A stretch of DNA of 64,000 nt from positions 62,001-126,000 of the forward strand of contig NZ_CAAGSW010000002.1 of NCBI RefSeq assembly GCF_900774055.1. The letters run 5' to 3'. Below are positions 47,250-50,889 of this stretch, piece by piece. Under the pieces are notes generated by a model that made no database searches, was not told where the DNA came from, and was given only the letters and a program-made list of their open reading frames with translations. Positions within the stretch are counted from its first letter, which is position 1; each line of letters begins with the position of its first letter. The stretch is from Methanococcoides sp. AM1. Lineage in GTDB: Archaea > Halobacteriota > Methanosarcinia > Methanosarcinales > Methanosarcinaceae. The position numbers were made by a program, and so were the translations under genes.

Positions 47250-49151
47250 TCATCCAAATTTCACGATCGGACAAATTTCAATACAGGCACCACAGTGGGT
47301 GCATGTCTTTCCAATGACTGCTTTCTCGTTTTTGACGGTAATGGAGTTGTTTGGGCATTTTCCCACACAGACGCCACAGCCCATGCATTTCAGGGCACGT
47401 CTGACCGATCTTTCCACATTTGTCATGAACTTGCGTGCACTCTTCTCGTCATTGCCTCTTGCAGTGATCGTTCCTGAGGCAAAGATCTGTGCACGGTCAT
47501 CGTCATGCTGTACTGAAGCGACCCCCTCAATATAAGCAGGCTTTCCGGCAGCACGAAGCTGTCCGGTATTTTCAATAAGCTCCATGTCAAGTGCAATGCC
47601 AAAGCTGCCTTCTGCAGACATTCCACCTTCGCGGCATGGCCTGTATCCGGAGGTCACAGCAAAGTTCAGGTTACCCTTTACTTCGCTCTTTGGTATGATA
47701 TTGATCCCTTTCTGTTTTGCCACTTCTGCAATGGCAGGCGGCAGGGTCTGCCATCTCCATAATCCATGGTCCACCCACTCTTTCGAGAGTCCCATACGCT
47801 CTGCATATTCCAGCAGGTAGTCATTAAGTCTCTTTTCCATCTGTGGGTGTGTTTCCTTTAAACGCACAATGTCTGCCAGTGATGAGGACGGGCACAACCA
47901 GCATCCTATCCTGTCAAAACCGCGTTCATACATCACGTTGTATGGTACCCCGGTCTTGAAAATATAAAGCCAGACGTGCATTGCGGTCCAGTCCTGTATT
48001 GGGGATGCCCCCACCTGGTTCCCTACCCATGGGTTCTTCCACACACGTTCGCTCTTTGCCCGGGCATCGGACTCATACTTTCTCTGGCCGATAAAAGTGA
48101 GACATCCGTTCTCGTAGTTCTCTTCGATTATCTGTGTGATGGGGCCGAGCTTACATACCTTGCAGCACCAGCGTGCTTCCACAGATGGCGGTCCGAAATT
48201 ATCAACGCTGTCCCAGAATGCTTCCTTTGCATCTTTTGTCCTGAGGGGCTTATTGTATAATTTCTCGATCTCTTTTACATTCTCGACGGTTTCAGGGAAT
48301 TCCAGTCCGGTGTCTGCAAAGAGAAGATCAAAATCTTCCAGGCATTCACTTGTCAGTTGTAGTACCGCAAGACTGTCCTTGCCACCGGAATATGAGACAG
48401 TGACCGGTTTTTTAACGGTCTCGTTTACGTTTTTGATAAATGAATGTGCTTTCTCCTCAAAACGCTCGAGGATGATAGAGTTCGCCTCAACGGCATCGTC
48501 CCAGGTCTGGCCACCTTCAGGAACGCTCAGTTTTTCAGGCTTGCCTTTCCAGCGGGTCTTGACACCGACACCACGCTTGTGTTCCAGCATATCGGCACCT
48601 GACATGCGTGCTCGACCGGCAGCTATTATATCTCCTTCGGGAGTAAGTACGACCGCCTCATCGGAAATCTGTATCTCCGGGTCGGCATCAACGATCCCCG
48701 GTGCAAGTACGCTTGCACCCTTTAATATGAAACTCACAGCTCCGCTGTCCAGTACGACCCATCCCTTCATGTCCTTGAGGTCCTTTCCTTCGAAAAGACG
48801 TCTTGCGCCGGGTAGTCTTGGCAACAATACCCACTGCAGCTTTTCTATCTCAAAACGAATGCTTGCGAGAACCTCTCCGTCAACGATGATCTCTTCCATC
48901 CTGTCATCGTATGGGGCCTTGTTCATTACAACAAGATGACCTTCCGGTATAAGCGGTGCGTTGAACTGTTTTAGTGAAACGGCATTGATATGATCGATGT
49001 CATACTGGAATGCCGGACGTATATCGCCGGGAGGGGTGACCTCAACCTTTTGAGTGCTTTCCCCACAACTGCATTTTTTCCCAAGTACGGGCACATTGCA
49101 ATGACTGCACCAGTGGAGAAGCAGTTTTCCAAGATATACAGGTTTTGACAT
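47250..49151 (-). CDS. Zinc ribbon-PUA-PP-loop (PAPS reductase-like)-2x[4Fe-4S] protein
   Basis: A 633-residue protein. An N-terminal zinc ribbon (CSHC...CSCG) is followed by a PUA-like domain at about 130-195 (LAPGIVDADPEIQISDEAVV). The PAPS-reductase-family PP-loop ATPase starts at about 248 (SYSGGKDS) with extra cysteines (WCCKVCKLGP; IGCWLCPSS). A sulfite-reductase-like half domain and two ferredoxin motifs (CMGCGVCVGKCP; CTHCGACIEICP) follow. It is usually annotated PAPS reductase, but the PUA domain suggests RNA as substrate. A TATA-like element about 20 bp upstream suggests its own, nearly leaderless, promoter. Confidence 0.85.
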   Translation of the reverse strand: MSKPVYLGKLLLHWCSHCNVPVLGKKCSCGESTQKVEVTPPGDIRPAFQYDIDHINAVSLKQFNAPLIPEGHLVVMNKAPYDDRMEEIIVDGEVLASIRFEIEKLQWVLLPRLPGARRLFEGKDLKDMKGWVVLDSGAVSFILKGASVLAPGIVDADPEIQISDEAVVLTPEGDIIAAGRARMSGADMLEHKRGVGVKTRWKGKPEKLSVPEGGQTWDDAVEANSIILERFEEKAHSFIKNVNETVKKPVTVSYSGGKDSLAVLQLTSECLEDFDLLFADTGLEFPETVENVKEIEKLYNKPLRTKDAKEAFWDSVDNFGPPSVEARWCCKVCKLGPITQIIEENYENGCLTFIGQRKYESDARAKSERVWKNPWVGNQVGASPIQDWTAMHVWLYIFKTGVPYNVMYERGFDRIGCWLCPSSSLADIVRLKETHPQMEKRLNDYLLEYAERMGLSKEWVDHGLWRWQTLPPAIAEVAKQKGINIIPKSEVKGNLNFAVTSGYRPCREGGMSAEGSFGIALDMELIENTGQLRAAGKPAYIEGVASVQHDDDRAQIFASGTITARGNDEKSARKFMTNVERSVRRALKCMGCGVCVGKCPNNSITVKNEKAVIGKTCTHCGACIEICPIVKFG

Positions 49152-49204: not shown

Positions 49205-50026
49205 TCAAAAGAGTTTGGAAGCAAGAGATGACTTCGCAGTAGTGCAGAATTTTTTAAAATTGCAATATTTGCAGATGGTGCCTTCTTTTCTTTCAGGCAG
49301 GACCCCTTCCTTTATAGTGTCAACACGCTTTCGTATTTTCAGAACTTGTCGGCGGTCTTCCGGTCTGATCTTTACTTTTCGGATATTTCCATGTCTTGCA
49401 TATTGAACAAAACCATGCTCGACACTATCCTCGTAGTTGTCTTCGAGAAGCATTGCAATGGCTGCAATGTGGATCCTGTCATTTCCCCAAACACCGGAAT
49501 CCGGGCATTTACCTGTTCTGATACTAAGCGGTACCATCTTTTCTTTGTAGTGCACAATTGCAGAAGGTATCCCGGTCATCTTCAGTTTGTCGGAGTGCAA
49601 TACCGGCTCTGTGCGGCATGGCCTGATCATCTGTATGATCTCTTCCCGACCATGTTGTCTGATAGTTTCCGAAAGGTTCATGGCAATGCTGTCGATCTGC
49701 TCAGAAACAACATTTTCAGCAGTTTCCAGCACTTTGAAAGGCAGGTCTCGCAGCTCGGTCGAATATATTAGTTCCAGCTCGGTCTTTACACGCTCCATTT
49801 CGATGTTAAGTTCGTCATGGATATTCTGTTTTTCACCCGTAGCTCTCTCAATAGCATCAGGATATCCAAGGGAAAGTTCCTTTAGCATCATGTGCTCAAG
49901 GTATTCTGGGGTTATTTCCGGAGCAAGCTTATGGTTTCGGTAAGCATAGTAGACCTGTCGGGGACACTTTAGGTACAGGGTCAGTTCAGAAACATTTGCA
50001 TGCAGTTTGAGATCTATCAAGGGCAT
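49205..50026 (-). CDS. Cas4-like Fe-S protein with degenerate nuclease core
   Basis: A 273-residue RecB/Cas4-like protein (COG4343 type). The four cluster cysteines are intact: Cys21 (LKCPRQ), Cys252, Cys255 and Cys261 (CKYCNFKKFC). The catalytic positions are replaced: Asp to Ser in TGIPSAIV, Glu and Lys to Ser and Arg in VPLSIRTGK, and the QxxxY position to His/Ile in RIHIAAIAML. So it is probably a non-cleaving, Fe-S-dependent nucleic-acid binder. No cas genes or repeats are nearby. The PUA-PP-loop gene follows after 53 bp. Confidence 0.83.
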   Translation of the reverse strand: MPLIDLKLHANVSELTLYLKCPRQVYYAYRNHKLAPEITPEYLEHMMLKELSLGYPDAIERATGEKQNIHDELNIEMERVKTELELIYSTELRDLPFKVLETAENVVSEQIDSIAMNLSETIRQHGREEIIQMIRPCRTEPVLHSDKLKMTGIPSAIVHYKEKMVPLSIRTGKCPDSGVWGNDRIHIAAIAMLLEDNYEDSVEHGFVQYARHGNIRKVKIRPEDRRQVLKIRKRVDTIKEGVLPERKEGTICKYCNFKKFCTTAKSSLASKLF

Positions 50027-50148: not shown

Positions 50149-50889
50149 ATGACCGAAGATATGGCCCATGAGAACATCCGTCAGCGTTTGGCTGAAAAGA
50201 TGGCAGGTGAGATCACTTTATCTGAGAAGCCCGGAGAGGCTTTGAAGAAGTGGCGATTGAACTTTGATATTGCCCAAACCGATCTGTCTGGTTATCTTGG
50301 TGTATCTCCTTCTGTGATAAGTGATTATGAAAGTGGCAGAAGGAAATCTCCCGGTACTCTTATTGTAAGTAAGATCGTAGACGCACTTCTGGAGATCGAT
50401 ACCTCCAAAGGTGGACAGAAGATCCATAGCTATGAAGGTATGCTTTATACTGATCCGGGTGCCAAGGCAGTGTATGCCACGTATGAATATACGTATCCTA
50501 TACAGCTTGCAAAGCTTGCAACCCTGATCGAAGCAGATGTTGTGAACAAAGGAGTTGAAAAGCCGCTTTACGGTTTCACTGTTGTGGACAGTAAAAAGGC
50601 CATTCTTGAGCTTTCATCCCATGAGTTCCAGAAATTGTATGGCTGGAGTACCGAGCGTGCAATGATATTCACAAAGGTCTCTACCGGAAAATCACCAATG
50701 GTGGCTATCCGCGTCACGAATCTGAAACCAGGTGCAGTGGTCATTCACGGAATAAGGGGTAATCAGGTAGATCCGATGGCCAGGAAGATGGCAGAGATAG
50801 ATCGGATACCACTTCTTGCAACGACAATGGATATTGATGAACTGGTGGATGTCCTGAAAAAGTACAGCCAGTATCATATAATCGAGTGA
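50149..50889 (+). CDS. XRE-type HTH regulator of the HMG-CoA synthase operon
   Basis: A 246-residue protein (COG1709-like). The helix-turn-helix is at about 35-90 (IAQTDLSGYLGVSPSVISDYESGRR). A ~150-residue C-terminal domain ends in VDPMARKMAEIDRIPLLATT and resembles ligand-binding ends of archaeal ThiN-type regulators. It lies 59 bp before the HMG-CoA synthase gene on the same strand and is probably its regulator. The ligand is unknown; a mevalonate-pathway or acyl-CoA signal is a guess. Confidence 0.82.
   Translation: MTEDMAHENIRQRLAEKMAGEITLSEKPGEALKKWRLNFDIAQTDLSGYLGVSPSVISDYESGRRKSPGTLIVSKIVDALLEIDTSKGGQKIHSYEGMLYTDPGAKAVYATYEYTYPIQLAKLATLIEADVVNKGVEKPLYGFTVVDSKKAILELSSHEFQKLYGWSTERAMIFTKVSTGKSPMVAIRVTNLKPGAVVIHGIRGNQVDPMARKMAEIDRIPLLATTMDIDELVDVLKKYSQYHIIE

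Follow-up and report, generated by a model that had tools for sequence, protein, structure and literature searches.

A widespread archaeal family of Cas4-like proteins lacking nuclease residues but keeping the iron-sulfur cysteines

The closest described relatives of the protein considered here are the Cas4 nucleases (DUF83, PF01930/TIGR00372). Asp123 and Glu136 hold the metal of Pcal_0546, and His94 has been suggested as another ligand; mutants in motif II, motif III, and the QhXXY motif are inactive, and Tyr166 (Tyr148 in SSO0001) is essential and has been proposed to coordinate DNA (PMC4176176). Solo-Cas4 proteins lie outside loci of clustered regularly interspaced short palindromic repeats (CRISPR), are mostly inherited vertically, and show a strength of purifying selection close to the genome median (Hudaiberdiev et al. 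2017, PMC5704561). The same survey took the conservation of the motifs as a sign that Cas4 proteins are active without exception, and it mentions the nucleocapsid protein of the virus TTV1 as an inactivated Cas4-like protein. Here we describe a Cas4-like gene in a 64,000-nucleotide stretch of DNA from Methanococcoides sp. AM1 (contig NZ_CAAGSW010000002.1, positions 62,001 to 126,000; the window), the product of which has lost its cleavage residues and kept its four iron-sulfur (Fe-S) cysteines.

The window protein has the four-Cys Fe-S pattern, the order of core motifs, and the Tyr of the last core strand in common with Pcal_0546, SSO0001, and the Geobacter Cas4 (8d3l). The initial annotation had placed Cys 21, 252, 255, and 261 at the positions of the Cas4 cluster and had read Ser for the Asp of GxxD, Ser and Arg for the Glu and Lys of ExK, and His and Ile at QxxxY; all of these residue numbers proved exact. 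The column assignment was concordant in three alignments, made by MAFFT, by comparison of hidden Markov models (HMMs) with those of canonical Cas4 from related genomes, and by profile alignment to 8d3l and Dna2; in each, the ExK Glu falls opposite Ile/Ser. A further loss had been overlooked, that of the motif-I metal His, replaced by Ser52. Motif II (Asp), motif III (ExK), QxxxY, and the motif-I His are all missing from the window protein (Table 1), which lacks 3/3 metal-ligand positions; 2/3 are lost throughout the family. The change of Lys to Arg at position 170 (K170R) is mild, with K or R normal in most of the family.

Orthologues were gathered across the order, class, and phylum, and 132 of them, spanning about 30 archaeal families with a mean pairwise identity of 31%, were aligned with 11 canonical Cas4 proteins encoded in these or in related genomes. 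Group names beyond Methanococcoides, such as haloarchaea-like, are inferred, and gene calls at GC-rich loci were based solely on homology. Each of the four cysteines is kept in every member (132/132), which at such low identity cannot be put down to chance. Conversely, no member has the ExK Glu (I, L, V, S, M, and others stand in its place) or the motif-I His (mostly A or S), whereas the canonical proteins all have Glu or Asp at the former position and keep the His, GxxD, E/DxK, and Gln (11/11). That 132 proteins share the cysteines and lack both of these residues argues against drift in a single species, and the loss of the His and Glu positions in every member read most likely predates diversification of the family. 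Tyr209, which aligns with Tyr166 of Pcal_0546, is kept in 128/132. By these alignments, residues for cleavage were lost, and the binding Tyr and the Fe-S ligands retained.

The Asp of GxxD has a different history. It is kept in 66/132 members and is missing in all 53 sequences from Methanosarcinaceae, in two members of family f2 (Asn instead), and in 11/11 haloarchaea-like sequences, in which the GxxD region is the least certain part of the alignment. It was lost separately in Methanosarcinaceae and in the haloarchaea-like group. A maximum-likelihood tree, built with the key columns removed and from a set without haloarchaea-like members, placed canonical Cas4 outside the family and required a single change to explain the ExK Glu and three to explain the Asp. 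The expectation that the substitutions would be conserved around invariant cysteines was therefore borne out, family-wide for Glu and the motif-I His and group by group for Asp. The window protein, which lacks the motif Asp, Gln, and Tyr in addition to the two residues missing from the whole family, is the most degraded end of this family-wide loss.

One can ask whether another residue took over catalysis. In that case, the family would still cleave through a rebuilt active site, with its Glu moved to position 208, and activity would be lost only in Methanosarcinaceae and the haloarchaea-like group. Position 208, which lies in the last core strand, following the QxxxY helix, was the only strong candidate for a catalytic residue elsewhere in the protein: it is Glu in 97/132 relatives and Cys or His in canonical Cas4. 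Most members outside the two Asp-less groups also retain GxxD and Lys or Arg of ExK, and often the Tyr of QxxxY. However, an acidic residue at 208 occurs in 68/76 proteins with a basic residue (Lys/Arg) at position 156 and in 7/33 of the others (Fisher p 4e-12, with no correction for relatedness), so that Glu208 looks structural, covarying as for a salt bridge. In addition, 208 should point to the opposite side of its strand from the active site because its neighbor, Tyr209, belongs to the active site in solved Cas4 structures; the motif-I His is gone in all members, and the window protein itself has Gln208 and no Asp. We therefore consider a migrated catalytic Glu disfavored, with some room left for it in the Asp-bearing members, and a rebuilt nuclease very unlikely as an account of the family.

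The progressive loss of catalytic residues might also be the mark of a gene on its way out. This idea is refuted by the selection data: the ratio of nonsynonymous to synonymous substitution rates (dN/dS) is 0.06-0.09 within Methanococcoides, near that of purH and the adjoining PUA gene, which implies a working gene and excludes a pseudogene. In a wider comparison, its dN was 2-3x that of purH and the PUA gene. The gene is present in 175/186 genomes of the order and in 115/118 of the good ones, a breadth as hard to square with decay as the invariance of the cysteines; 133/148 genomes of the phylum have some Cas4-like match. Two irregular copies were seen. One orthologue (L098, G132:C1:1785363-1786163) has an in-frame TAG in mid-gene (QNLSA*AKDP) with the downstream part intact; this could be a pyrrolysine codon, TAG being readable by such methanogens, or a broken gene. 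At another locus, a second copy of the C-terminal half (L078:9575-9940) lies ~3.9 kb downstream of the full copy.

Several observations separate the family from CRISPR adaptation. No cas match was found among the flanking genes, and the window contains no CRISPR-like direct repeats, as the initial annotation had stated. Neither cas1/cas2 nor a CRISPR array is adjacent, and the Cas1 of this genome is encoded on another contig. Cas1 was found in 91/118 good genomes of the order, so that at least 24 of these carry the Cas4-like gene without Cas1; this greater breadth agrees with the CRISPR-independent role that had been suggested. Unlike Cas4, the family is unlinked to cas1/cas2 and about 60-70 residues longer, with a conserved C-terminal tail. 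Judged by eye, this tail is not a PCNA-interacting peptide (PIP) motif, given a spacing off by one and no Gln. In its location outside CRISPR loci, mostly vertical inheritance, and purifying selection, the family resembles solo-Cas4. The genome has no canonical Cas4; its sole other PF01930 match is a UvrD-RecB fusion that retains all motifs, a 913-amino-acid frame combining a UvrD-like helicase with a RecB/Cas4-type nuclease (L158, C2:482000-493000, match at C2:486798-487172). This fusion adjoins a second large open reading frame resembling a type III modification gene. No relative of the Cas4-like protein was seen in scans of viral contigs.

The assignment to DUF83 is itself a correction. The protein had been labeled COG4343, which is Csa1/DUF911, a different Pfam family with a related fold and Cys pattern; it matches PF01930 instead (2.2e-9, 38 bits against a curated cutoff of 22.7) and had no match to PF06023 (Csa1/COG4343) at E up to 1 (Pfam; PMC5704561). 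Among relatives, PF01930 was matched by 45/45 of set A1 and PF06023, weakly, by 9/45. A relative in M. vulcani is 95% identical. Against the NCBIfam cas4 equivalog (TIGR00372), the window protein scores 61.9 bits, just below the cutoff of 65. Three relatives exceed it (L036, 82.6 bits; L104, 75.7; L144, 66.2) although they lack the ExK Glu and the motif-I His; public annotation may therefore label them CRISPR Cas4.

Table 1. Features of the Cas4-like locus (window positions)
Feature	Position	Strand	Remark
Cas4-like (DUF83) gene, predicted pseudo-nuclease	49205..50026	-	273 aa, ATG start, single copy in genome
Cys21, first Fe-S ligand (YLKCPRQVY)	49964..49966	-	invariant 132/132
Ser52 at motif-I His position	49871..49873	-	His 11/11 canonical Cas4, 0/132 family
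Ser155 at GxxD Asp position (TGIPS; GIPS)	49562..49564	-	alignment
Ser168-Ile-Arg170 (SIR, in PLSIRTG) at ExK	49517..49525	-	alignment, HMM-HMM
His186 to Ile190 (HxxxI, in DRIHIAAIAML) at QxxxY	49457..49471	-	alignment
Tyr209, equivalent of Tyr166 Pcal_0546/Tyr148 SSO0001	49400..49402	-	kept 128/132
Cys252, Cys255, Cys261, CX2CX5C Fe-S ligands (CKYCNFKKFC)	49244..49273	-	each invariant 132/132
C-terminal tail SSLASKLF	49208..49231	-	family pattern [ST][LF]xSx[FL][FL] at extreme C-terminus
PUA - PAPS-reductase-type PP-loop - ferredoxin protein	47250..49151	-	53 bp downstream of Cas4-like gene, same strand
Helix-turn-helix (HTH) regulator, divergent	50149..50889	+	heads mevalonate genes (HMG-CoA synthase, thiolase, DUF35)

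What might such a protein do? We lean, with reservations, toward an old, vertically inherited family of inactivated archaeal Cas4 paralogues, whose members serve as binding adaptors or scaffolds and are not required for CRISPR adaptation. The adaptor would most likely be non-cleaving, held together by its Fe-S cluster, and nucleic acid binding, possibly on RNA. We propose that the four cysteines carry a cluster that staples the ends of the RecB-like fold, that single-stranded nucleic acid is bound in the former catalytic groove and left uncut, and that a partner is engaged by the conserved C-terminal tail. The initial annotation had likewise proposed a non-cleaving Fe-S protein, and this part holds at the level of sequence, with family-wide catalytic losses, kept Fe-S ligands, and strong purifying selection. 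We infer the remainder of that proposal, a nucleic-acid sensor or scaffold; the kept Tyr209 fits binding.

Certain observations weigh against this reading. The GxxD, Lys/Arg, and Tyr retained by Asp-bearing members exceed what a pure scaffold needs. A single-sequence AlphaFold2 model reached a predicted local distance difference test (pLDDT) score of 35 and was unusable. Some neighbors are unrelated metabolic genes, and in three families (f12, f18, and f22) an Orc1/Cdc6 and/or Hjc-like (resolvase) gene is adjacent.

This last point bears on the main rival, in which the protein is a subunit for DNA recombination or repair, a dead nuclease fold that guides DNA for another protein with helicase or nuclease activity. 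RecC is a precedent, keeping a nuclease-type fold without catalysis and using it for binding; the Cas4-like protein, in contrast, has no helicase domains. The fold family is that of RecB/AddB/Dna2, an intact Cas4-like nuclease lies divergently adjacent at two f10 loci, and the Methanococcoides genome encodes the intact UvrD-RecB fusion as well. In most lineages, however, such partners are not adjacent, and it is Sua5 and a nucleotidyltransferase that recur as neighbors from family to family. A repair subunit thus seems an unlikely explanation, if one to be taken seriously.

In Methanosarcinaceae, the surroundings of the gene are stable: the HTH-mevalonate genes adjoin it in every locus for which larger surroundings were read, and the PUA-PP-loop-ferredoxin gene follows it in 8/10 genera examined. 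A link to the latter gene, and conservation of the two-gene order, had been anticipated, and both hold within this family. Elsewhere neither does; the pairing occurs in 0/61 loci outside Methanosarcinaceae, which rules out the PUA-PP-loop gene as a general partner, and the HTH-mevalonate genes were likewise not found there. The same distribution tells against a rival in which the four cysteines sense redox state or iron so as to control a partner such as the Fe-S PUA-PP-loop protein, nucleic acid binding being incidental. The cysteines are the most conserved residues, and the downstream protein of Methanosarcinaceae also has a ferredoxin domain. Yet this Fe-S partner is absent from the neighborhood outside Methanosarcinaceae, and Tyr209 and some basic residues are conserved almost as well as the cysteines; we regard a pure redox sensor as quite improbable.

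A scan of flanking genes for defense systems returned only generic PP-loop (BrxP/DndC/SspD-type) and HTH similarity. Against the PADLOC BrxP model, the PUA-PAPS-reductase-ferredoxin protein (window:47250-49151) reaches 180 bits over its PP-loop and ferredoxin parts, so that defense scanners could miscall this gene. A literature search for the PUA-PAPS-reductase protein type found nothing.

Outside Methanosarcinaceae, a nucleotidyltransferase-like gene (weak NTP_transf_2) is adjacent or close in eight families, in either orientation. The encoded protein is uncharacterized (GSRLxGLExxxSDIDxVVYG; L134:4258-5196, L144:1464-2387, L152:2773-3699, L148:2600-3607), and the one example tried had no PDB relative by sequence. 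Sua5 is nearby in nine or ten families, often with a DUF5612/ACT gene beyond it. In one lineage, an ArcS-like TGT gene and a PUA gene lie directly upstream; in another, the neighbor is a Trm5/TYW2 gene. Counting the PUA-PP-loop gene, RNA-modification-type neighbors occur in four separate settings, which is more than expected (binomial ~0.002 to 0.03 for 4/12 settings, a post hoc estimate with an assumed background of 5-10% and an assumed number of settings). By these recurrent neighbors, an RNA setting, and specifically tRNA modification, is slightly favored over DNA repair for the proposed adaptor. A more specific version, in which the Cas4 fold has become a non-cleaving Fe-S RNA-binding protein, nearly universal in one archaeal phylum and partnering tRNA-modification enzymes (Sua5, the uncharacterized nucleotidyltransferase, and archaeosine/thiolation enzymes), is a speculative suggestion that we put forward tentatively. 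We know of no description of a Cas4-type protein working with tRNA-modification enzymes.

By sequence, the family is an exception to the statement of the 2017 survey on the activity of all Cas4 proteins. The TTV1 protein provides a case of the Cas4-type fold reused without nuclease activity, but it is a viral structural protein, whereas the present family is chromosomal, occurs in nearly all members of an order, and keeps its Fe-S cysteines. In such a family, the Fe-S and nucleic-acid-binding role of the Cas4 fold would be uncoupled from nuclease activity. By sequence, moreover, at least some of the archaeal proteins annotated as CRISPR-associated Cas4 are not nucleases. Its conservation across the order (115/118 good genomes) is sufficient for a housekeeping protein. 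The family occurs in groups with working genetics, in the order of Methanosarcina and probably among relatives of Haloferax, and so its role should be directly testable.
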